Source: Candidatus Omnitrophota bacterium (lineage in GTDB: Bacteria > Omnitrophota > Gorgyraeia > 2-01-FULL-45-10). Taken from it: a DNA stretch of 54,813 nucleotides. The notes below the pieces were generated by a model that worked only from the letters and a program-made list of their open reading frames with translations, did not search any database and was not told the DNA's origin. A program made the position numbers and the translations under genes. Positions within the stretch are counted from its first letter, which is position 1. Every line of letters begins with the position of its first letter. Positions 21,935 to 51,189 of this stretch are shown piece by piece. Location of the stretch: assembly GCA_030695905.1 (NCBI GenBank), contig JAUYOL010000036.1, positions 1-54,813 of the forward strand, given 5' to 3'.

Positions 21935-23560
21935 CTATCTGTATCTTTGTTCACTTTTCGGCACGTACCACTCGATGAAATTGTAGCCGATACCGATGGG
22001 TGATGATTCTACATTTTTGAAACGTGAATTGACAATCGGTAATGTATCGGATGAAAATAAAAATAAGTACGGCTGATCCTCATATATGAGCCTGTGTATC
22101 TCGTGATAAATCTCGGCACGCTTTGCCTGATTAAACGTGCGTCTGCCCTCTTCCAATAATTTATCGACCCGCTCATTCTTGTACCCGATAAAATTGAACT
22201 CGCCCTCGCGCGTCTTTGACGAGTGCCATATGTCGTAGCAATCGGGATCCTGCGAGAGGAACCATCCCATGAGCACCGCCTCAAACCGCTTCTTGATGAT
22301 AAACTCATTTATCATGCTCGACCATTCAAGGACACGTATCTTCATTAAAATGCCGGCATCTTTAAGATACCCCTGCATAAGTTCTGCGCAGCGCAAGCGT
22401 TCGGCATTGCCCTGATTTACCAGGACCGTGAATTCGAATATATTTCCGTCTTTTTCCACTAATCCATCGCCATCCGAATCTACCCATCCCGCTTCTTTCA
22501 AAAGTACCCTTGCCCGCGCGGGATCGTATTCGGGAGATTTAACATCCCTATTATAGGCCCATGCATCGGGTATAAACGGCCCTGTTATCACTCTCGCGAG
22601 CCCAAAATATATGGTATCGATCATCTCTTTTTTGTTCACAGCGTAATTTATCGCTCTCCTGACTCTTATATCCTGAAATTTTGGCTCGGAGAGATTATAT
22701 CCCATATAGGTAAACCCAAAACTGGGATACTTAAATTTATTATAGTGGTCTTTGAAAAAATTATTATCTGTCTGGCGTATATATTGAAGCGGCGTAAGAT
22801 GCGACATGTCGACTCCTTGAGTTTGCAGCTCCAGAAATGTTGTCGCCTCATCAGGAATTATGCGCACTATATATCTATCTATGTAAGGCCGACCCTCAAA
22901 ATAGCTGTGATTTGATACTAATTCTATCTTCTCACCCGTTTTCCAGATCTTAAATTTATACGGGCCCGTACCTATGGGCGCGCGGGAAAATTTTGTTTTA
23001 TTGAGGTCTTCCTTTTCCAGAATATGTTTGGGCATTATCCACATGCCCCAGCTCGAAAGGGCCGGAGCGAACGGCTCTTTATATTCAATCTTTATTGTGT
23101 GATCATCTATAACAACAAAATCCTTTATCCGCTCAAAATCTCCGCTGTAAGGGGTTTTTACCGAAGGGTCGATAAGTTTTTTATACGTAAACTCTACATC
23201 GCGCGCGGTAAATGGAGCACCATCGTGCCAAAAGACGCCTTTTTTCAGATAAAATATTATTATTTTGCCTTCGTCCTCTATATCCCATTTCTCGGCAAGA
23301 CTACCGACAATATTCACATTTTTATCATATTTTACCAGGCCGTTAAATACCTTGCCGCATATGTCGCTTGAGGTTGAGTCGGAGGCGAGAATAGGCACGA
23401 GAGTACGCGCGTCACCGCTGGATGCGACGATTATCGCGTCACCGTACGCCGTACCGTTATCCGCACCGGGAGGGTAATTTTCCCCTCCCGGTGCGGAATG
23501 GGTTAAGAGTAAAAAAAATACCGCTGCGGTTAACAGCGGTATTTTTCTATAAATAGGCAT
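21935..23560 (-). CDS. oppA: Peptide-binding lipoprotein-like periplasmic protein, OppA family
   Basis: This solute-binding protein (family 5) captures peptides for OppBCDF. Residues 1-22 form a signal peptide with a basic start, MPIYRKIP, and a hydrophobic core; no lipobox cysteine is visible. The mature part shows the family motif region WHDGAPFTARDVEFTYKKL (about 112-130) and VRRAINYAVNKKEM. The total of 541 residues is normal. The codons for the signal peptide form a terminator-like hairpin, and those just after it form a second strong hairpin. The ATG is 12 bases after secG, with AGAAGG before it. Substrate could be dipeptides or other small molecules. Confidence 0.93.
   Translation of the reverse strand: MPIYRKIPLLTAAVFFLLLTHSAPGGENYPPGADNGTAYGDAIIVASSGDARTLVPILASDSTSSDICGKVFNGLVKYDKNVNIVGSLAEKWDIEDEGKIIIFYLKKGVFWHDGAPFTARDVEFTYKKLIDPSVKTPYSGDFERIKDFVVIDDHTIKIEYKEPFAPALSSWGMWIMPKHILEKEDLNKTKFSRAPIGTGPYKFKIWKTGEKIELVSNHSYFEGRPYIDRYIVRIIPDEATTFLELQTQGVDMSHLTPLQYIRQTDNNFFKDHYNKFKYPSFGFTYMGYNLSEPKFQDIRVRRAINYAVNKKEMIDTIYFGLARVITGPFIPDAWAYNRDVKSPEYDPARARVLLKEAGWVDSDGDGLVEKDGNIFEFTVLVNQGNAERLRCAELMQGYLKDAGILMKIRVLEWSSMINEFIIKKRFEAVLMGWFLSQDPDCYDIWHSSKTREGEFNFIGYKNERVDKLLEEGRRTFNQAKRAEIYHEIHRLIYEDQPYLFLFSSDTLPIVNSRFKNVESSPIGIGYNFIEWYVPKSEQRYR
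23461..23496. repeat. 14-bp-stem palindrome in the oppA coding region
   Basis: CCGCACCGGGAGGG (23461-23474) pairs with CCCTCCCGGTGCGG (23483-23496) around an 8-base loop. It encodes residues 22-33, SAPGGENYPPGA, in the flexible stretch right after the signal peptide, a place where extra residues are easily tolerated. Confidence 0.7.
23511..23546 (-). terminator. Intrinsic-terminator-like hairpin inside the oppA signal-peptide codons
   Basis: On the minus strand AAAAATACCGCTG (23534-23546) pairs with CAGCGGTATTTTT (23514-23526) around 7 bases, and the T-run reaches eight (23511-23518). This has the full shape of a rho-independent terminator. It encodes roughly residues 5-16 of OppA. If active when untranslated, it would attenuate transcription from tpiA-secG into opp. 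It may also simply be a palindromic insertion. Confidence 0.5.
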
Positions 23561-40594: not shown

Positions 40595-41373
40595 TTGACC
40601 TTCCTTTCTTTTTCATTCTGCAGCATCTCCCAATATTTAACATACGACATTATTTGATAGAAGCCTCCACCCCAGGCTGCCATTAAACCCACCAGCCCAT
40701 CTCTAAATCCCTGCTCGAATAAATAATATCTTAAAAACCTCGATAAAAATTTACGATACGCCTTGAGAAATCCGATTTTTCTCTTCTCTTCAAACCATTT
40801 CTTTGCCTCGAGCGTAGTCTGGTTGTTGAGGCTCTGGAAGAAATCATGAAAATTATTATAAGAATAATGTATGATATCCCCCTTTAAGAAACGGCCGCAG
40901 CTGCCATGATATATTATCTTTGGATGCACACCCTTCTCTTCGTACCTGACAATGCGTTTGTCTATAAGCCTGTCTTTGCTGGCGGGGTACCATCCTCCGT
41001 ATCGGATCCATTTTTTTCCCAAATATGTTTTTATTGGTATGCAAAAAACTACGTCTTTTATGGGTTTTTTAAACAACTCCCGTAACTCACTCGCAAGCTC
41101 CTGGCTGACCCTCTCATCAGCATCAAGACTAAGCACCCAATCATTCTTCGCCAAACTATAAGCATAATTCCTATGAGCACCCTCAACATCCATTTTCCTA
41201 AAAAATACCCTTCCCGTAAATTGTTTTGCTATCTCTACTGTCTTATCGATACTATTATCATCCAACACGATTATTTCGTCAGCCCACGATACGCTTTTAA
41301 GGCAATCGGCTATATTGCCTTCTTCATTCTTTGTTATCACTACCACTGAAACTGGAACTGGAACTTTCTCCAT
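40591..41373 (-). CDS. GT2 glycosyltransferase, LPS core WaaE/KdtX-like
   Basis: This family adds a beta-1,4-glucose or similar sugar to heptose of the LPS core. The 260 residues start MEKVPVPVSVVVITKNEE, with VLDDNSIDKT and the DxD motif SLDADERVS. KRIVRYEEKGVHPKI and the C-terminal basic helices match the family. An upstream ATG would add 13 residues, but those are encoded by a palindromic repeat; the chosen ATG has AAAGGAG five bases before it. A similar domain occurs fused in the gene at 43502-45253. Confidence 0.87.
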   Translation of the reverse strand: MEKVPVPVSVVVITKNEEGNIADCLKSVSWADEIIVLDDNSIDKTVEIAKQFTGRVFFRKMDVEGAHRNYAYSLAKNDWVLSLDADERVSQELASELRELFKKPIKDVVFCIPIKTYLGKKWIRYGGWYPASKDRLIDKRIVRYEEKGVHPKIIYHGSCGRFLKGDIIHYSYNNFHDFFQSLNNQTTLEAKKWFEEKRKIGFLKAYRKFLSRFLRYYLFEQGFRDGLVGLMAAWGGGFYQIMSYVKYWEMLQNEKERKVK

Positions 41374-41384
41374 TGTAACTCCTT

Positions 41385-41438
41385 TTACACCGCCCCGGTG
41401 GAAGTGTAGCATGCTACTATGACACCGGGGCGGTGTAA
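41385..41438. repeat. Large palindromic element before the WaaE-like gene
   Basis: TTACACCGCCCCGGTG (41385-41400) is inverted perfectly as CACCGGGGCGGTGTAA (41423-41438). The 22-base centre contains the perfect 12-bp palindrome GTAGCATGCTAC (41406-41417). It fills most of the 69-base gap between two glycosyltransferase genes, just before a ribosome-binding site. A related element lies at 49574-49622. Confidence 0.85.
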
Positions 41439-41442
41439 TTCA

Positions 41443-42456
41443 TCAATAAGAGTAGACTTTTGCTTTGTGGATAAACGATAGCCCTTCTAAGACTTTTATC
41501 AATCTTTCATCCGCAACGTATATTTCACTGAATCTCTTTTTTTTGAATAAAATCTTAAAAAGCGTCTTCATGCAAAAGAATTTGCCGAATTCAGCTGCTA
41601 TTATATTGGAATGGCGCGGCAAATCCAAACGTTTTCTTGAAAACGCCCACACCCAAAAACCGTTCCTGGCCGTATTGAGCGCGTCTTTATTGAATTTGAC
41701 CAGCATATACTCATCTACCGGATCCAGGATATAGGCTATCCACCTGCGCTTGCCCCACCTGAATTCATAGATCTGCCTATTACGTTCAAAATTTTCATCA
41801 AAGACTTGATCGCGGCCGAATGACGTCCCTTCCCTGTGATAAACATAAGCGCCGCTTGCCCTCGCGCATAAAAATCCGGCTTTTATCGCGCGACGGGAAT
41901 AGTCAGTATCTTCAAAGTTCCCCATACCATATATTTCATCGAATACGCCTATCTTGTTAATGACATCTTTTTTAATGAGCATGCAAAAACCTATGGCGGA
42001 GCCTATCTCTTCCCATGTCCCGGGCTCTCTTCTCATACTCAAAGCATATTCCTCTATAGATGCCCCCTTATCGGGCTTCTGACCCATAGTATTACTCGAA
42101 GGATTTACAAGGCCTATTATAGACGAAGCTTCGGCAACTCTTATCATCTCGCCAAGCCAACCGTTTGCGGTTACGGCATCGTTATTCAGTAAGCAAACAT
42201 ATGAGGCATCCGACAACCTCACGCCCTGATTCGCCGCTTTGACAAACCCAAGATTATTTTCATTCCTTATAAGAAGCAGCTTCCTGCCCAGCGGTTGTCT
42301 CAAGCCCTCAAGATAGCTTTTGGTCTCTTCACCGCTCGCGTTATCTATTACAATTATCCTATAATCCACATCTCCGGTATTTTTTACTATTGAGTCTATA
42401 CAATCTTTCGTAAGCTCAAGTTGATTCCATACCGGAATGACTATGTCGCAGCGCAT
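41443..42456 (-). CDS. GT2 glycosyltransferase, rhamnosyltransferase-like
   Basis: A GT-A fold enzyme of 337 residues, starting CDIVIPVWNQLELTKDCIDSI. Donor-site motifs are IVIDNASGEET, NENNLGFVKAANQGV, CLLNNDAV and the acidic ED of GMGNFEDTDYSRRA, all standard for the rhamnosyltransferase-like group that decorates cell-wall and O-antigen chains. The C-terminal 90 residues have no recognised motif. It overlaps the GT9 gene by 16 bases. Sugar and acceptor are unknown. Confidence 0.87.
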   Translation of the reverse strand: MRCDIVIPVWNQLELTKDCIDSIVKNTGDVDYRIIVIDNASGEETKSYLEGLRQPLGRKLLLIRNENNLGFVKAANQGVRLSDASYVCLLNNDAVTANGWLGEMIRVAEASSIIGLVNPSSNTMGQKPDKGASIEEYALSMRREPGTWEEIGSAIGFCMLIKKDVINKIGVFDEIYGMGNFEDTDYSRRAIKAGFLCARASGAYVYHREGTSFGRDQVFDENFERNRQIYEFRWGKRRWIAYILDPVDEYMLVKFNKDALNTARNGFWVWAFSRKRLDLPRHSNIIAAEFGKFFCMKTLFKILFKKKRFSEIYVADERLIKVLEGLSFIHKAKVYSY

Positions 42457-43538
42457 AACATGTCTTTCACTTTTTGAAATACCTCATCAACGCTCACATC
42501 TTCGAGGCATCGCCTGTCGTTGTCGCATCCATTAAAACGAAAATCCTTATAACACGGCCTGCAGGATACATCCTTCTTTATCACCGCATGCTTTTGGCCG
42601 GGCGGATAAGGGCCATATACCTTTTCATCGACAGGGCCGAATATAGAAACCGTACTTACCCCCAACGCTACCGCCATGTGCAAAGGGCCGCCATCGTTGC
42701 AGACTAAAATACTTAATTCTTTTATAGCGGCCGCCAATTCTTCCAAGTCGAACTTTCCTGTAAGATCTGCTATATTTTTATTGCCGGCAATATCAATTAT
42801 TTTACCGGCAAGCAATTTTTCATCCGAACTACCCAATAAAACTATATGAGCACCCGCTTCTCTGGATATTTTCTGCGCCAACTGTCCGAAATTTTCTGCC
42901 GGCCATTGCTTATAAAAAGCATCTTTCCCCCAGCTGGCCCCTCCGCCCATCGCTATCCCTATTACGGGCCTGGATAGATCGACTCCTGATTGTGACAACC
43001 TTCTTCTTGCATTAGCCTTATTTTCATCCGACACATTTAGGTAAAGCGATTTATCTTTTGGGTAAACTTCTATAAGCTTTAAAAGGTCAGCGTAATATTC
43101 GACCACATGCTTGCCGGAGTAACCCGTTAAAACAATCCTATCGGTGAGAAACCGGCCTCTTGCCTTATAGTCAAAACCTATGCGTTTCTTTATTCCTGCC
43201 AGTTTTGACCATAAGCCGTATCTAGTATCAAGCGAAAAGTCAAAAGCCGCATCAAACCTTTCCCTTCTTATTCCCATTATCAAACCCGATAACGCCCCCA
43301 ACCCTTTTAACCCCTTATTAATCCCTTTTAGGCCCTTATAGATCCTTTTAATATCACCTCTTGATAGCGGGAAGACCTTACTAATATCGGGGTTACCTTT
43401 TAGCAACTCCCCCACTCTTTCATTGCACCAATAACCTATATAACTACCAGGATGCTTCTCTTTTATGGCTTTGATGACAGGCGTTGTAAACAATACATCG
43501 CCTATACCGAAAGGATTGATGATGAGGAATTTTTCCAC
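42441..43538 (-). CDS. GT9 heptosyltransferase-family protein
   Basis: GT9 enzymes use ADP-heptose in LPS core synthesis. The N-lobe begins IINPFGIGDVLFTTPVI with the family acceptor-binding DVLFTTP. The C-lobe shows GGGASWGKDAFYKQWP and CNDGGPLHMAVALGVSTVSIFGP, the donor-binding signature. The protein ends with a cysteine cluster, CRPCY...CDNDRRC, as in LPS heptosyltransferase II. At residues 67-81 a short repeat, KGLKGINKGLKGLG, reflects a tandem duplication. With 365 residues and a 37-base overlap with the fusion gene upstream, it is part of a coupled group. Confidence 0.87.
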   Translation of the reverse strand: MEKFLIINPFGIGDVLFTTPVIKAIKEKHPGSYIGYWCNERVGELLKGNPDISKVFPLSRGDIKRIYKGLKGINKGLKGLGALSGLIMGIRRERFDAAFDFSLDTRYGLWSKLAGIKKRIGFDYKARGRFLTDRIVLTGYSGKHVVEYYADLLKLIEVYPKDKSLYLNVSDENKANARRRLSQSGVDLSRPVIGIAMGGGASWGKDAFYKQWPAENFGQLAQKISREAGAHIVLLGSSDEKLLAGKIIDIAGNKNIADLTGKFDLEELAAAIKELSILVCNDGGPLHMAVALGVSTVSIFGPVDEKVYGPYPPGQKHAVIKKDVSCRPCYKDFRFNGCDNDRRCLEDVSVDEVFQKVKDMLCAAT

Positions 43539-45253
43539 TCTCTTACCTTATCTAAAACCTCTTCTACGCTGATATCGGAGAGGTTATTTTTTTCGATAAC
43601 TATATTTCCACTTCCCCACGGCCCCCATCTTTTAGGACCTTTACCCGGCATATCATTTCTAAATAACGCGATTACTGGCGTCCCTACGCTGCAGGCAAGA
43701 TGCACCGGACCCGAATCTCCGGAAATTAAAAGCCCTGACTTCTTTAATATAGCCGCCAGTTGCGGCAGCGTCGTCTTACCTGTTAGATTCAATATGCGGT
43801 CATTTATATAATTGAAGCTTGCGCTTTTTTCTATTTCATCCTTGCCGCCCACAATCACAACATCCAGGTTAAATTCTTTTACCAACTTTAGCGCCAATTC
43901 GCGAAACCGTTCCACGGGCCACTGTTTTATAGCGTCACTTGTCCAGGGGTGGATGACGATTAATCCCACCGCCGCGGTGAAATCCCGGCTAATTGGCATA
44001 GCGCCGCAGCAGCGTAATTCCGTTTCGTTAATTTTCAAAGAAAGGCTTTTATCTTTCGTATCGGCTCCGACTATTCTTACAAGATCGAGGTTATATTCAA
44101 TCTCGTGCTTTTGTGCAAGATATTTCCTGTCTTCTATCTTTTTCGTCAGAAGAAAATCCCACTTATGCGCATAACCAATACGCTCCGGGATACCGGCTAT
44201 CTTTACCGCTATATTGGAATCTTTCGAAGGATTCATTACAAATACAATATCTATACTCTTTTTCTTTAGCAGGCCGGAGAATTTAAGGATATCGACCATA
44301 GAATGCTTTCCACTCTTCCACACGATAACTTCATCAACATTAGGAATCTTCGCAGCAATTTCTTTTACATGATTATCCACAGCCAATATTATTTTTGAGG
44401 CTGGAAATTTTTCTTTTAACGCGCGTATTGCCGGGATATTGAGCAAGAATTCACCAAATCTGTCATTTCTCATAACGAGAATGTTTTTTCTATCTTTGAC
44501 TAACTCCCAAACCTTCGCCCACTTTAAGAAATGCACCCATGAAAAAAGGATAGCAAATACAAATCCATACAGTCCCTCTTTATAACCCTTGTTTTTAATA
44601 TACATCTTTTTAAATAGCTTGGCTGGTTTCGCTCTAAGATTATATTTTATGTTCCTAATGGAAAGATCTTTCTCCGTATCGATAATATCCCTGGCCTGCA
44701 AATCCGTATATCTATTCTGTCTATCGATAAACTCCGATATCGAATCAAACGGGGTATGCATAATATCGGCATCAAGGTGTCCCACATCCCCGTCAACTAT
44801 CATCTTTTCATGCACCCTTCCTTCATATCGAGCCTTATTTTTCCTAAAAAGATGCTGGGACCAGTGATACCATCCGCCATAAGTAAAAGCGTGGCCCAAA
44901 AATATATTCTTTCTCCTGAACTTAAAGGCGTTATAATTCGTGGCCGGCAAAATCAGGTCGCACTTTTGCTTAAAGTCATCCGTTATGACCTCGTCACTGT
45001 CAAGCTGCAGCACCCATTGGCTGGAGGCTTTGTCGCTACCAAAGTTTCTTTCGGCTGAAAACTCTCCGAGAAATTTATGTGGATAAACTTTTGCGTTAAA
45101 ACTTTCCACTATTTTGGCAGTATTGTCAGTGCTCTCGCCGTCAACAATAATAATTTCATCCGCCCAGCCGGTAAGCGATTTCAGGCAATCGCCTATCTTC
45201 TTTTCCGAATTTTTGGACAGAACCACTGCAGATATGGAATAATTCTTTGGCAT
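43502..45253 (-). CDS. Two-domain glycosyltransferase: GT2 fused to GT9
   Basis: The 583-residue protein joins two enzymes. Residues 1-250 are a WaaE/KdtX-like GT2 domain: SAVVLSKNSEKKIGDCL, IVDGESTDNT, LDSDEVIT and a basic C-terminal part. Residues about 258-583 are a GT9 heptosyltransferase-like domain: VMRNDRFGEFLLNIPAIRAL, VIHPWTSDAIKQWP and SGDSGPVHLACSVGTPVIALF. The junction lacks a stop and keeps a clear frame. Fusion suggests successive transfer of a heptose and a hexose to one acceptor. It follows the ligase gene by 2 bases. Confidence 0.87.
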   Translation of the reverse strand: MPKNYSISAVVLSKNSEKKIGDCLKSLTGWADEIIIVDGESTDNTAKIVESFNAKVYPHKFLGEFSAERNFGSDKASSQWVLQLDSDEVITDDFKQKCDLILPATNYNAFKFRRKNIFLGHAFTYGGWYHWSQHLFRKNKARYEGRVHEKMIVDGDVGHLDADIMHTPFDSISEFIDRQNRYTDLQARDIIDTEKDLSIRNIKYNLRAKPAKLFKKMYIKNKGYKEGLYGFVFAILFSWVHFLKWAKVWELVKDRKNILVMRNDRFGEFLLNIPAIRALKEKFPASKIILAVDNHVKEIAAKIPNVDEVIVWKSGKHSMVDILKFSGLLKKKSIDIVFVMNPSKDSNIAVKIAGIPERIGYAHKWDFLLTKKIEDRKYLAQKHEIEYNLDLVRIVGADTKDKSLSLKINETELRCCGAMPISRDFTAAVGLIVIHPWTSDAIKQWPVERFRELALKLVKEFNLDVVIVGGKDEIEKSASFNYINDRILNLTGKTTLPQLAAILKKSGLLISGDSGPVHLACSVGTPVIALFRNDMPGKGPKRWGPWGSGNIVIEKNNLSDISVEEVLDKVREWKNSSSSILSV

Positions 45254-45255
45254 AT

Positions 45256-46452
45256 TTAAATTTTTTCTTCCAAAAACTTATTTAACGACACTATGTATGC
45301 GGTCATCACCCAAAAAAGAGTGGTAAGCCTTAGAGAAAATAGATTGGTATCCAGCCCAGACTGTATAAGAAATGCCACATAGCCGGCCAGTGCACCTAAA
45401 AGTATAAATCCTTCGACGCCGCTTTTTATTTTCTTCCTTAGATCTCGCACTGTTTGTTTTACTACAATAAATATGGCTGAAAGGAAAGCGGCAAGCCCGA
45501 ATATTCCTATCTCAGACCACATCTGCAGATATGAGTTATGAGAGTACATAATACCCCAATATTCCGATGGCTTATAAATAGGAAAGTACCTGGAAAAAGT
45601 ATTGACACCAAAACCAAAAAAAGGATGCACTTTAATCATCTCCCATGTGCCCTTCCATAGCTGAGTCCTCTCCCATACCGTATTTTGTTCAAAAGCAAAA
45701 AGTCCCTTAATTCTGTCGAAGCCATGCGGGGACAACATAACAACCGATATTATTGCTAAAGGAATAATAACCGAAATTTTCTTATTATAAAAATAGAAGT
45801 AGACTATCATGCCTAACAGAAAAGCTACCCATGCCCCTCTGGACGAGGTCCTTATAAGACAGTAGGCTCCCAAGATACAGTTTATTGCAATAAAGGCCCT
45901 GTGGTTCTTTTTAAAGTAAGGACATAAAAAACAGAGCGATATAGGTAAAATGGCTATTATATATGCCGCAAAATCGTTGGGATGAGCAAATGAACCCGAT
46001 ATTCTGTGTAATTTGTCGGTAAGGGCGATCTCATTATGCCGCACCATATCGAAATTAAATACCGACTGAAATATCCCATTAAAAAAAGTAAAGCATGATA
46101 TACCCACAATCACCCAAAATGTTCTGCCGAGCAGTTTTTTGTTACCGCTAAAAAAGTCGGTAAGGGCGAAGAATAGGAATACAAATTTAATTATTCGCAA
46201 AAACCCTCGTATACTCTCGTTAAAGTAGGCACTCCTAAAAAATGTCACCAATATAACTGCACACAATATATATATTGGAAAATTAATAGGTGTTTTAGGC
46301 AGCTTGTAGCTTTTTAGGAATAACTTCTTTACGATGAAAAAGCATATTGTGGATATAGCAAATATCTCTGTTGCGGAATTTGAAAAAGTAATACCTAGTA
46401 AAAGGAGATATATAGAAGCTTCGGTCAAAATATTAAATGTATTAATAAGCAT
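45256..46452 (-). CDS. O-antigen ligase/polymerase family membrane protein
   Basis: The 398-residue protein has about eleven membrane segments and a large loop in the second half. The Wzy_C/WaaL family is indicated by HPNDFAAYIIAILPI, RTSSRGAWVAFLLGM and the loop GTWEMIKVHPFFGFGVNTF followed by MYSHNSYLQMWSEIGIFG, the periplasmic catalytic-histidine type region. It either ligates finished O-chains to lipid A core or polymerises repeat units. It overlaps the initiating transferase gene by 11 bases. Confidence 0.87.
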   Translation of the reverse strand: MLINTFNILTEASIYLLLLGITFSNSATEIFAISTICFFIVKKLFLKSYKLPKTPINFPIYILCAVILVTFFRSAYFNESIRGFLRIIKFVFLFFALTDFFSGNKKLLGRTFWVIVGISCFTFFNGIFQSVFNFDMVRHNEIALTDKLHRISGSFAHPNDFAAYIIAILPISLCFLCPYFKKNHRAFIAINCILGAYCLIRTSSRGAWVAFLLGMIVYFYFYNKKISVIIPLAIISVVMLSPHGFDRIKGLFAFEQNTVWERTQLWKGTWEMIKVHPFFGFGVNTFSRYFPIYKPSEYWGIMYSHNSYLQMWSEIGIFGLAAFLSAIFIVVKQTVRDLRKKIKSGVEGFILLGALAGYVAFLIQSGLDTNLFSLRLTTLFWVMTAYIVSLNKFLEEKI

Positions 46453-47845
46453 TTTTCAGCGCAAATAGCGACATAAGTATTATTTTAAGATCGAACCATA
46501 TCGACCAGTTTTCAGCATAATATAAATCATATTTGACCCTGGATTCTATCGGCGTTCCCTGCCTAAACCCATTCACCTGTGCCCATCCGGTCATACCGGC
46601 CTTTATATGGTGGCGGCTCATGTAGCGCGGTATGCCGTCTTTAAATTGATCTACAAAATAAGGTCTTTCCGGCCTGGGTCCAACAAGGCTCATATCGCCC
46701 TTGAGAACGTTGAATAGCTGCGGAAGCTCATCAATATTGTACATTCTTAGAAATCGTCCTATTCTTGTACATCGCTCATCATTTTCCTGCGCAAATACCG
46801 GACCTGTCTGAACCTCTGCCTCGGGACGCATCGTCCTGAACTTATATATTTTGAATATTCTGCCCCCTTCGGTCACTCTTTCCTGCAAGAATAAAACCAT
46901 CCCCCTTGAATCCAGTTTCACAATAATGGCTACGAGGGCTAAAAAAGGAGAAATAGCGACGATACCAATGCCTGAAGCTAAAAAATCCACAACTCTTTTC
47001 AGGAACCTATTATGCGCATAATTCAAGGGCGATTCTTTTATCCTGATCAGATTTAAACCATTTATATTCTCCACTTCGAATTGCTGAATAAGAACGTCAA
47101 ATAGGTCCGCTACTATCTTGAATGTTACCAGCCTTTTTTCCGATTCAAGTATCATGGCAATGATCTTCTTCCTGGGTAATTCAAGATCTGACAGTATTAC
47201 CTCATCCGGCTTTACTGCGTTAAGAACCTCTTCGAAATTCTCAATGGACCCTAAATTTTTCATCAGGATAGGATATTCCTGCGTAACTTTTCTGGAAGAT
47301 ACAACACCCACGATATCGCCATATTGCCTGAAATACCGCTCGTGAGATTTGATTATCTCCATGCTTTCAGGCTTGCCGACTATAATTATCCTCTTTCTTG
47401 TTTTGGGCAAAATTCTTCTTTTATAAAATATGCCCAACAGATACCTGGAAAACGCGAGCAATATGACCAGGTTTACCCATGTAATAAATATCAGGGACCT
47501 GGAGTAAGCCCTCTCTCTGTAAAAAAACGTGCCTGCGAGAACAAAGAGCATCGTTATTCCGACGCTTTTAAATATGGAAAAGAAATAATCGATAAATTTT
47601 TTTGTAGGATCCGGACGATAAAGACTTTGTGAGTTCATTACCAAAATAAGAAGGACCGCTATCCATAATACGGGTAAATAGTAATGGTCCAAGGATGGTA
47701 TGCCCAAAGGAGTTGAAAAAAAGTTGGAATGAAAACGTACTTCATACGAAAGAAATAGCGCGAAGAATATAACGAGAGAATCTCCCGCCATCAGGAGGCC
47801 GGAGAAGAACATGTTAAGCCTTTTTTTATTCAGAATGGATATCAT
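46442..47845 (-). CDS. Polyprenyl-phosphate sugar-1-phosphotransferase (initiating transferase)
   Basis: These enzymes start glycan synthesis by moving a sugar 1-phosphate to undecaprenyl phosphate. The 467 residues have four N-terminal membrane helices, a nucleotide-binding-like cytosolic domain (about 155-260) and the C-terminal catalytic domain. The latter shows [15 protein letters not shown], the KFRTM motif in [38 protein letters not shown] and [11 protein letters not shown]. WcaJ/WbaP-type is the best fit; whether it uses glucose, galactose or another sugar is not visible. It overlaps the GT4 gene upstream by 4 bases. Confidence 0.93.
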
Positions 47846-48975
47846 ACAATAACCCTTCCCGCCCTCTCCTTTACAAAATTTTTTATGCCGCTAACAAATT
47901 TATCTTCAGAAAATCTTTCAGCATTGTGCCTGCAATCTGTGGGATTAAACTCACCCTCTCTCTTTTCGAATTCATTTATAGCTTCTATGAGTGAATCCGC
48001 AGTCTGTTCAAAAAAGAATAACCCTGTGGGATTAGTATTTTTTGAAGCGCCATTTATAGGGATAACCGTCTCTGTCATGCCACCCAAGCCAAACGCTATT
48101 ACCGGAAGCCCTAGGGCTTGCGCCTCTACGGGCGCTATGCCGAAGTCCTCGAAAGCCGCAAATAAAAAAGCTTTTGCCCCTTCACAAATCTTAACAACCT
48201 CGTCGTGATTAACCCATCCGGTAAATTTGATATTGGGAGAGCTTTTCTTGGCTTCCCATTCCTTCCGGACATTGCCATCTCCCACAATGACCAATTTTTT
48301 ATCCGGCATCCTGTTAAAAGCTTCTATCATTATATCAACTCTCTTATACGGCACAAGGGCCGATACACACACATAGTAATCACCTTTTTTGCGTAATGGA
48401 TTAAATCTGAACTTGTCAATTTCAACCGGAGGATATATTACTGTCGAATCTCGATTATATACATCCCTTATTCTGTCTTTTATGGTATTTGAAATCGCGA
48501 CAAATTCATCTACCCTTGGCAATGTGTTCAAATCCCATTTCTTCAGATATTCACCAAATAATCGTACAAGCGATCTTTTCCATGGAGGGTATGAACCAAA
48601 ATACTGATCAAATAGCACCCACATATAGCGCATAGGGCTGTAACAGTAACAAAAATGGAAGGATCCTTCGGGCTTTTTAACCCCCTTTGCCACACAATGC
48701 GAAGAGCTTATGACAAGATCGTACCCTTTTAGGTTAAAACTTTCCACCGCTAATGGGAAAAGAGGTAAATAATTTCTGTATTTTGTCTTGATGCCGGGGA
48801 AATTCTGTAAAAAAGATGTATGGATGGGCCGCTCTTCAAGAATAGAATCTACGGAACCCTTATCATGAATAAGCGTGAATAGTTCAGCTTGGGGGAATAT
48901 TTTGCAGAAAACATTGAGGATTCTTTCTCCTCCGCGCATCCCCAGAAGCCAATCGTGAACTATCGCCACCCTCAT
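47842..48975 (-). CDS. GT4 glycosyltransferase
   Basis: A GT-B retaining enzyme of 377 residues. The N-lobe has VAIVHDWLLGMRGGERIL, typical of a subgroup near exopolysaccharide initiating transferases, and SPMRYMWVLFDQYF. The donor-binding lobe has YVCVSALVPYKRVDIMIEAF, VGDGNVRKEW and FEDFGIAPVEAQALGLPVIAF with the paired acidic residues. Its first 31 codons overlap the end of the preceding GT4 gene in another frame. The donor sugar is not predicted. Confidence 0.87.
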   Translation of the reverse strand: MRVAIVHDWLLGMRGGERILNVFCKIFPQAELFTLIHDKGSVDSILEERPIHTSFLQNFPGIKTKYRNYLPLFPLAVESFNLKGYDLVISSSHCVAKGVKKPEGSFHFCYCYSPMRYMWVLFDQYFGSYPPWKRSLVRLFGEYLKKWDLNTLPRVDEFVAISNTIKDRIRDVYNRDSTVIYPPVEIDKFRFNPLRKKGDYYVCVSALVPYKRVDIMIEAFNRMPDKKLVIVGDGNVRKEWEAKKSSPNIKFTGWVNHDEVVKICEGAKAFLFAAFEDFGIAPVEAQALGLPVIAFGLGGMTETVIPINGASKNTNPTGLFFFEQTADSLIEAINEFEKREGEFNPTDCRHNAERFSEDKFVSGIKNFVKERAGRVIV

Positions 48976-50074
48976 TATAGATCTTTCTATATAATTCTAC
49001 AGTTCTATCGGCAGTATCCTGCCAATTAAATCGCTTGGTATTTTCCAAGCCTTTGGCTATAAGCGCTTTTCTTATATCATTATTAGACAGTACATTATAC
49101 AGATTTTCGTATATTTGGTCAATATAAGACGGGTTGACCGGTAAAATGCCATCGTGACCTATCTCTCTATGAACGGGTATGTCACTGCAGACCACGGGCA
49201 ACCCACAGGATTGAGCTTCCAATATAGTGAGCCCAAACCCCTCGTACAATGACAGGTTAAATAAACAAGAAGCGAGATTATATATTACAGCCAGCTCTTT
49301 ATCGCTTTCCACTTCACCTAAATACAGAACCCCATCTTTCTTTATATCAATATCCTGGCTTAGCCTGCCCACCATAACAAGATGCGCTTCGGGAACTCTT
49401 TGTTTGAGGTTACTAAAGGCATCTAAAAGAGTTTTTATATTCTTGTGTCTCCTGATGCTTCCGACATATAATAAGAATTTATCCGGCAGATTGTATTTTT
49501 CTTTTACACTTTGCAGGTATGCCGAATCAGTGATTTTTTTGAAAACATCATCGACTCCTTCGTAAATAACCGCCACACCGCGGCGGTGGGAACACATAAA
49601 ACTACTTGCACACCGCGGCGGTAAAAACCTCTTCGACAACTCATCCTTCGTCGCCTGCGAAACACATATCACTGCTTTAGCAGACTTTAATATCCTATTC
49701 ATCATAAACCTCATATACACCGGAGCTAATCTTCCGCTGGCCCCTTCCGGATAAATAATATGTATGAGATCATGGACAGTCGCAATAAGACTAAACTTTG
49801 CCAGAACAGGGATATTATAGTGAGGCACGTGAAGAATATCGTCCTTAATAATACTCTTTAGTTTTAAGAAACTGATCTGCTCCTGAATTGAATATATAGG
49901 ATAGTCAAAATCTATGACATTCTTCTCTATACCTAAAAGCTTTTTTATTTTTTTCTTATTGCCAAGAAGATACAGGTCAACCGACCCAGCTTCTCCAATA
50001 AGAGACAAAAGACACCTTATATACCTGCCTATTCCTGGATGGTCTATCATTCGAGCATCGAAATACACCTTCAT
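48884..50074 (-). CDS. GT4 glycosyltransferase with a palindrome-encoded insertion
   Basis: A mannosyltransferase-like GT4 of 396 residues: DARMIDHPGIGRYIRCLL at the start, TVHDLIHIIYPEG, then LYVGSIRRHKNIKTLLDAF and SLYEGFGLTILEAQSCGLPVVCSD. Between KRF (to 150) and VIYEGVDDVF (from 169) are 18 extra residues, LPPRCASSFMCSHRRGVA, encoded by the repeat at 49574-49622. Relatives join these segments with a short link. The last 30 residues are encoded over the start of the next gene (92-base overlap) and carry no family motif, so the ancestral stop may have been lost. The frame is otherwise intact. Confidence 0.85.
   Translation of the reverse strand: MKVYFDARMIDHPGIGRYIRCLLSLIGEAGSVDLYLLGNKKKIKKLLGIEKNVIDFDYPIYSIQEQISFLKLKSIIKDDILHVPHYNIPVLAKFSLIATVHDLIHIIYPEGASGRLAPVYMRFMMNRILKSAKAVICVSQATKDELSKRFLPPRCASSFMCSHRRGVAVIYEGVDDVFKKITDSAYLQSVKEKYNLPDKFLLYVGSIRRHKNIKTLLDAFSNLKQRVPEAHLVMVGRLSQDIDIKKDGVLYLGEVESDKELAVIYNLASCLFNLSLYEGFGLTILEAQSCGLPVVCSDIPVHREIGHDGILPVNPSYIDQIYENLYNVLSNNDIRKALIAKGLENTKRFNWQDTADRTVELYRKIYNEGGDSSRLASGDARRRKNPQCFLQNIPPS
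49574..49622. repeat. Palindromic element in frame within a GT4 gene
   Basis: CACACCGCGGCGGT occurs twice (49574-49587 and 49609-49622), 21 bases apart. ACCGCGGCGGT is a palindrome with an unpaired centre, so the copies are both direct and inverted repeats. The arms and the spacer motif CTACT resemble the intergenic element at 41385-41438, so they appear to be one family. Confidence 0.75.
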
Positions 50075-51189
50075 CGTTCAAGCCCTTTCACCGCATCTAT
50101 TACCTCTTCGACAGATATCGATGTCATGCATTCATTAGTTTTTGCTTCGGGACAGATCTTGTTTTCACATGGCTTGCATTTCGTATCTTTATACACAAAT
50201 TTTACATTCGGACTATTCTGAATCCACAATTGGGGTATATTGGTCCCGGAACATATTATTACCGACGAAACATTCAATGCCGCCGCTATATTGGCAGGCC
50301 CTGAATCAAGCCCGATAAAAAATCCTGCATCTTTGATCAAGTACGCCAATTGAGGCAAGTTAATACCCCCTCTCAGATCAATAACATCGTTAAAAATACC
50401 GGCATCTTCTTTGGAGCCTACGAGAAAAACATTATAGCCATTTTCTTTTAACCAATTAATTATCTTTTGAAAATTACCAATCGGCCACTCTTTGGCCTTT
50501 GCTCCGGCAAACGGATGCAATACAACGGATTTCTTGCTGCCTGGGCCGAACTCCTTTTTAATCTCGTTAACAACACTTATATCTTTATCGTTAAAATAAA
50601 CTTCCGGCAGCCTGCTTTCTACCTGAATATTTATCTTTTCCAACAAAGATAAATTTCTATCAATTATATGGCTATCTCTATCATACCTGCCCTCTGCATG
50701 CAGAAGAAAACCGCCGCCGGTAATTGGGTAACCAACTCTATATCTTACACCTCCCAGCCACATCAATAATATCGACAAGAGATCGCCGCGGGAGTCTATC
50801 CCTATGTCAAAGGACAAGGCCTTTATGTCTTTTATTACACGGCTCAATCCCTTCAGCATAGATGACCTATCGTTACGCGCAAGATAAAAAGGCGAAAATG
50901 TTATTACTTTGTCTATATACGGATTTCTATACGCCAACTCTTTTGATACCGAGTTTATCAAAACTGTGATTTTTGCATCCGGAAATTTATTTTTAAGGTT
51001 TTTGAATAACGGGGTTGTGCATATAAAATCGCCTATGTGATCAAGGCGAACTACAAGTATTTTTTTTGGGCTTAACGGAACGGGCGGCTTTAAAAGCTTC
51101 GCGGGAAAAAAAATGACGCTCCCTATAATATCAAGGAGCGGGATAAAGAGCTTGTATCTATTTTTCTTAAATGTATATTTCATAGGCAC
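50071..51189 (-). CDS. GT9 heptosyltransferase-family protein
   Basis: The second stand-alone GT9 protein, 372 residues. After a basic, partly hydrophobic N-terminal 40 residues comes the GT9 N-lobe, VVRLDHIGDFICTTPLFKNL, with its conserved aspartate. The C-lobe holds VLHPFAGAKAKEWP and GLDSGPANIAAALNVSSVIICSG. Near the end CKPCENKICPEAKTNECM gives the cysteine cluster also seen in the other GT9. It overlaps GT4 genes by 4 and 1 bases. Heptose is the likeliest donor but is not proven. Confidence 0.87.
   Translation of the reverse strand: MPMKYTFKKNRYKLFIPLLDIIGSVIFFPAKLLKPPVPLSPKKILVVRLDHIGDFICTTPLFKNLKNKFPDAKITVLINSVSKELAYRNPYIDKVITFSPFYLARNDRSSMLKGLSRVIKDIKALSFDIGIDSRGDLLSILLMWLGGVRYRVGYPITGGGFLLHAEGRYDRDSHIIDRNLSLLEKINIQVESRLPEVYFNDKDISVVNEIKKEFGPGSKKSVVLHPFAGAKAKEWPIGNFQKIINWLKENGYNVFLVGSKEDAGIFNDVIDLRGGINLPQLAYLIKDAGFFIGLDSGPANIAAALNVSSVIICSGTNIPQLWIQNSPNVKFVYKDTKCKPCENKICPEAKTNECMTSISVEEVIDAVKGLER

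Follow-up and report, generated by a model that had tools for sequence, protein, structure and literature searches.

The repeat pair found in a GT4-family glycosyltransferase gene of the window (the whole stretch of 54,813 nucleotides analysed, from a Candidatus Omnitrophota bacterium) very probably belongs to a dispersed, non-autonomous palindromic repeat, a copy of which was inserted at a permissive surface loop of the enzyme and is translated with it. It most likely represents a new untagged, gene-invading family of palindromic elements in Omnitrophota. The most interesting aspect is that the permissive loop is common to relatives, where it is occupied by unrelated repeats that the initial annotation of this DNA could not see.

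An in-frame palindromic element in a GT4 glycosyltransferase gene

The sequence CACACCGCGGCGGT is present twice in the gene, as direct repeats with starts 35 bases apart (Table 1). No other 14-base repeat within 100 bases exists in the window, and 30 first-order shuffles yielded none. Each copy is built around the perfect palindrome ACCGC-G-GCGGT, which extends to CACCGC-G-GCGGTG in the left copy, and the arms are able to pair across the spacer in a fold. The initial annotation had placed the pair in coding sequence between KRF and VIYEGVDD, and the ORF indeed reads ...ATKDELSKRF LPPRCASSFMCSHRRGV A VIYEGVDD... without interruption; its translation contains the two cysteines and the basic residues (several of them) attributed to the insert. 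The window harbours another full copy of the repeat, whose fold is far more stable than those of shuffled sequences (z -7.6), as well as a partial match that may be due to chance. Elsewhere in the window, a perfect 15-bp inverted repeat (TCCGCACCGGGAGGG...CCCTCCCGGTGCGGA, positions 23460-23497) was observed near the start of a substrate-binding-protein-like ORF (21935-23560).

Table 1. Location of the palindromic element, its parts and related copies in the window.
Feature	Position	Strand	Remarks
GT4-family glycosyltransferase gene	48884..50074	-	396 aa, element in frame
Whole element	49574..49624	-	Encodes residues 151-167, LPPRCASSFMCSHRRGV; family-model match and sequence
Arm copy 1	49574..49587	-	CACACCGCGGCGGT, palindromic; minus-strand reading ends ...HRRGV
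Spacer between arms	49588..49608	-	21 bases; degenerate version of the GTAG-NNNN-CTAC centre of other copies
Arm copy 2	49609..49622	-	CACACCGCGGCGGT; minus-strand reading LPPRC...
Second full family copy	41386..41437	.	Intergenic; near-perfect long inverted repeat TTACACCGCCCCGGTG...CACCGGGGCGGTGTAA
Weak, partial family match	43966..44010	.	Single ACCGCCGCGGT arm, E 0.003; in another glycosyltransferase-like gene

The GT4 protein contains a Glyco_transf_4 domain at residues 70-153 and a Glycos_transf_1 domain at residues 192-342. Its structural model has a mean pLDDT of 90.7, with low values restricted to the insert (below 50 at residues 158-164) and to the C-terminal tail, and the insert is predicted to lie between a helix (140-150) and a strand (166-169). 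Such a low-confidence segment inside an otherwise confident model agrees with the loop location put forward in the initial annotation. A fold search with this model retrieved only the expected GT4-type enzymes (MshA, BshA, PimA), and the fold around the insert is predicted to be intact.

The loop segment, measured from KAVICVS to VIYEGVDDVF, was compared in 51 sequences, namely the window's GT4 and 50 homologues from named genomes; about 20 of these homologues belong to other phyla. It is 36-37 residues long in 47 of the 51. The only exceptions are the window's GT4, with 46 residues, and its three closest orthologues (63-67% identical over the best segment), and repeats are found in all four. 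No conserved 18-residue loop, the outcome that the initial annotation had opposed to an insertion, emerged from this comparison. The extra residues are real, but the gain of 18 residues that had been proposed is reduced to a net gain of about 9-10 over the homologues. The element codes for 17 residues, and roughly 7-8 residues of the ancestral loop are missing. Their absence is compatible with replacement or with an insertion accompanied by loss, and would likewise be expected had an earlier repeat occupied the loop. We found no target-site duplication at the GT4 copy and, among the homologues, no near-identical empty site that would give a clean empty/filled pair; with 7-8 residues lost as well, a simple insertion event is not demonstrated.

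A dispersed family of genic and intergenic copies

Genome-wide searches, of the kind suggested in the initial annotation, reveal a dispersed family of about 50 bp, referred to below as the ACCGC-arm family. Copy numbers were obtained from pattern searches and from searches with a family profile built from seven dimers. The 11-mer ACCGCGGCGGT has 21 matches in the 1.82-Mb genome, versus one for the reversed control, and a strict two-arm pattern gives six genomic sites and no control match. The profile detects ten full dimers, with E values from 1e-13 to 1e-5, and a roughly equal number of single or short forms. The family unit consists of two palindromic arms of 11-19 bp, of the type (TTA)CACCGCNGCGGTG(TAA), around a centre of about 21 nt. 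A typical copy reads (TTA)CACCGCCGCGGTG, about 21 nt that often include GTAG-NNNN-CTAC, and CACCGCGGCGGTG(TAA). The bases at the arm centres vary from copy to copy (CCGCGG, CCCCGG, GGGGCG), with the palindromy of the arms being kept.

Five of the ten full dimers are internal to genes and in frame, one is C-terminal and four are intergenic. For genic copies, the reading frames were followed across each element and compared with solved relatives or family models. The five internal copies are located in conserved enzymes: GT4, RecG (SHRRGGIAENNMAPRRCT, a gap in the alignment with 1gm5), MnmE (IHRRGVVVENHMTPPRCT), CysS (LHRPGDKLLSKTTPGRCK) and RfbD (LHRRDDKLFSLTTPQRW), the latter four inserts being judged against PDB relatives that do not have them. 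One full dimer provides the last residues and the stop codon of a HIT-domain protein, and one intergenic copy lies upstream of a gene that is argB-like by sequence. Short forms occur in frame in MtaB, RsmE and an antiporter subunit (a Proton_antipo_M protein). In-frame palindrome insertion has thus happened more than once in this genome, as had been claimed, with at least five internal gene sites for the ACCGC-arm family alone. The element previously noted in mrdA (PBP2) does belong to another family: the in-frame insert, at about positions 1686-1776 of the window (FDPSTSLRVNGERSRTID), differs in sequence and is derived from an unrelated repeat, CCTTCGACTTCGCTCAGGGTCAATGGTGAGCGTAGTCGAACC.

Part of the six frames is closed in most copies, and wherever the element is in frame its arms are read as HRRG/PPRC. 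Because the frame used is an open one, the common HRRG/PPRC peptide is largely explained by stops in the other frames. Products acting on tRNA or rRNA are encoded by six of the 11 distinct genes that carry the family (MnmE, CysS, PheT, Tgt, MtaB, RsmE), with a binomial tail of about 1e-4 in a post hoc calculation assuming a background share of 8%.

The search was extended to 97 genomes; every sequence compared comes from a draft metagenome-assembled genome (MAG), that of the window being in 43 contigs. The ACCGC-arm family was found in three of the 97, the window's genome (G000) and two genomes of a second genus from the same taxonomic family. In one of these (G017), copies are located in Tgt, in PheT and upstream of an ispG-like gene; the other (G023, LacPavin_0920_SED3_MAG_48_12) has a single copy, in mnmE. 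Over the three genomes, the 14 full dimers comprise eight internal in-frame copies, one C-terminal copy and five intergenic copies.

Repeats in the same loops of relatives

In the three closest GT4 orthologues, the loop carries repeats that do not belong to the ACCGC-arm family, namely CGTC-type REPs and a CCCGCC hairpin. G023 possesses two GT4 copies, with loop segments of 44 and 67 residues. A GT4 loop of this genome carries ATTCCCGCTTTCGCGGGAAT with TGTC and CCA on either side, like CGTC-1 REPs (dRS3/RPE-6 type), and its layout, TGTC-ATTCCCGC-4 nt-GCGGGAAT-CCA, fits that class; it is unrelated in sequence to the window's element. The corresponding ATTCCCGCNNNNGCGGGAAT pattern has 35 copies in G023 versus none in the control. 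The second G023 copy contains a dimer of CGTC-type units in the loop, and a further in-frame hairpin, CCCCGAACC-CTTGT-GGTTCGGGG, is present at residue ~77 of the LacPavin GT4. In the case of G008 (RIFCSPHIGHO2_02_FULL_46_20), the 66-residue segment includes TCCCGCCAAAAAGCGGCGGGA, of the CCCGCC hairpin family, plus a second element; this repeat has several copies in G008, is found in LacPavin, and its 24-bp core occurs in the window's genome. By a strict count, the same GT4 loop is the site of at least three unrelated repeat families across three genera.

Other genes of these genomes also contain such repeats. In G008, a heptosyltransferase-like gene near gt4 (L145, about 1501-1560; G008:C31:18733) has the CCCGCC hairpin in frame as well, giving two genic copies of this repeat at the locus. 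In G023, CGTC-type repeats are in frame in a MEMO1/AmmeMemoRadiSam gene (L195, about 1491) and, twice, in murF (L201, 1456 and 1535).

The RecG and MnmE loops vary as the GT4 loop does, less cleanly. The RecG segment is 36-44 residues long in most outside genomes; within the family, lengths of 43 to 64 are found and the sequences are unrelated. The MnmE segment ranges from 26 to 67. RecG proteins of G023 and G020 (L157, L175) have more inserts at other places (RGTESFDKSSGFRPELS; ISSGKMGQSPPFCFAKRSAGIVPIF), which resemble translated repeats.

The MnmE element is found at the same codon in G000 and G023, which belong to separate genera (L088 1303-1353 vs L038). Third codon positions of the two genes are 94% identical within the element (17 codons), versus 46% in the rest of the gene. 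MnmE proteins of G017, G020 and G005, from the genus of G023, do not have the insert common to G000 and G023 and correspond to empty sites. Old inheritance would need constraint at the DNA level or conversion between copies; otherwise, the same codon was hit twice.

Origin of the element and its relation to known palindromic repeats

In-frame palindromic inserts were at first a rickettsial curiosity and were later found in some REP-rich genomes. Elements of the Rickettsia type (RPE; Ogata 2000; review, PMC2229807) are 105-146 bp long and are tolerated by the host protein, the gmk product having been shown to be active. Like RPE, the ACCGC-arm repeat is short and palindromic, has genic and intergenic copies and lies in frame in conserved enzymes, so that both dispersal and in-frame insertion with homologues lacking the element, which characterize this protein-coding kind, were found here; unlike RPE, it is only about 50 bp long and resides in Omnitrophota. 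RPE-4 and RPE-6 are CGTC-tagged (PMC3733652), whereas by inspection the ACCGC-arm family has no tag, the families being compared by description only. Intragenic GTAG/CGTC REP dimers have a conserved, partly complementary spacer and code for ~20-30 residues; they are biased to repair, tRNA-related and RNA-binding genes, with which the ACCGC-arm gene set agrees, and two Xanthomonas species have different REPs at nearly the same position of recB (PMC3733652). The ACCGC-arm repeats likewise are small palindromes paired around a conserved spacer and coding inside genes. As opposed to REPs, which are mostly intergenic, the majority of full dimers are genic (8 internal of 14). Moreover, their arms end in TTA/TAA or in varied bases, and GTAG is located in the centre, 3' of the left stem, which does not correspond to GTAG/CGTC REPs. 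As to MITEs, some copies have long inverted repeats, and we saw no autonomous partner.

Six Y1_Tnp genes above the Pfam cut-off are present in the genome. The ACCGC-arm repeat was absent within 1.5 kb of all six when their flanks were scanned, as opposed to the REPIN/RAYT arrangement; action in trans is possible. One Y1 gene (L034 1131-1169, 2941-2957; G000:C32) is flanked by a palindrome of its own, TACCCACCGGGTGGGTA, with its core present three times in 3.2 kb. This layout is the typical RAYT arrangement, for a repeat family other than the ACCGC-arm one.

We propose that a repeat of ~50 bp was inserted into the GT4 gene at a permissive surface loop, where it would be translated as a disordered segment of 17 residues. 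Copies may have spread by a replicative process based on single strands or hairpins, possibly with a Y1/RAYT-type transposase acting in trans as the hairpin-recognising enzyme that copied the element into the gene. Genic insertions would persist only with an open frame and a loop that tolerates extra residues, those breaking the frame being lost, and a loop having once held a repeat could stay a landing or replacement site for others. A narrower form of this explanation, in which a REP/REPIN-type repeat is moved specifically by one of the Y1 (RAYT) transposases of the genome, is possible and appears rather doubtful to us. The six Y1 genes, the resemblance of the palindrome dimer and its conserved centre to the REP dimers of PMC3733652, and the RAYT with its own palindrome speak for it. 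None of the six genes is flanked by the ACCGC-arm family, however, and the arm ends have no 5'-GTAG/CGTC tag, GTAG being found only inside the centre, on the opposite side of the stem.

The palindromes might instead be selected binding sites or RNA regulatory hairpins (operators, processing sites) whose coding of 17 residues is incidental. The MnmE third positions look like conservation of DNA rather than of protein, and several copies lie directly upstream of genes, as would be expected for such sites; recent independent insertion or copy-to-copy conversion explains the MnmE pattern as well. The genic positions, moreover, are scattered, mostly in mid-gene loops where other genera hold unrelated repeats, a search of Rfam (E up to 1, window 41000-50200) was null, and restriction to three of the 97 genomes also makes this reading unlikely. 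It is still less probable that the repeats were wrongly spliced into genes during assembly. Repeats are classic misassembly sites, and the genome is a draft; the copies are, however, only ~50 bp long, they are away from contig ends, the frame is kept in all five internal genes, and an independent MAG of another genus has the MnmE copy at an identical site, which led us to reject misassembly. Least credible of all is an ordinary variable loop with coincidental, low-complexity likeness to a repeat. The RecG and MnmE loops do differ widely in length across the family, but a nucleotide family with E values down to 1e-13, genic and intergenic copies and reversed controls near zero is not accounted for in this way, and for the GT4 copy the genome-wide family search refutes it.

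Within the preferred explanation, a dispersed repeat inserted and translated, we tentatively consider a stronger version in which the loops are true landing sites. Unrelated palindromes would insert, stack and replace one another at the same codons (in GT4, probably also in RecG and MnmE), and turnover of mobile palindromes would drive the evolution of protein loops. In MnmE, the element would be maintained as DNA, which would imply that copies are converted, that one codon was hit repeatedly or that the DNA or RNA has a function within coding sequence.

We found no earlier report of palindromic elements in Omnitrophota in the open literature, and in the main text of the RepRanger REP survey Omnitrophota are not mentioned, nor are REPs that are intragenic or in frame. 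The kind of element is known; the family, the phylum and the colonisation of the same loop by unrelated repeats appear to be new. The family is untagged, lies mostly inside genes and hits core enzymes of DNA repair and tRNA metabolism. For annotators, it is a warning that a loop rich in cysteine and arginine in a MAG protein can be a translated DNA repeat. GT4 provides an unusually clean natural experiment: the loop is constant in length in 47 of 51 sequences, and the four from one family-level clade all bear repeats there, those of the other three being unrelated to the window's. It makes testable whether repeats just find tolerant loops or prefer sites opened by an earlier repeat.
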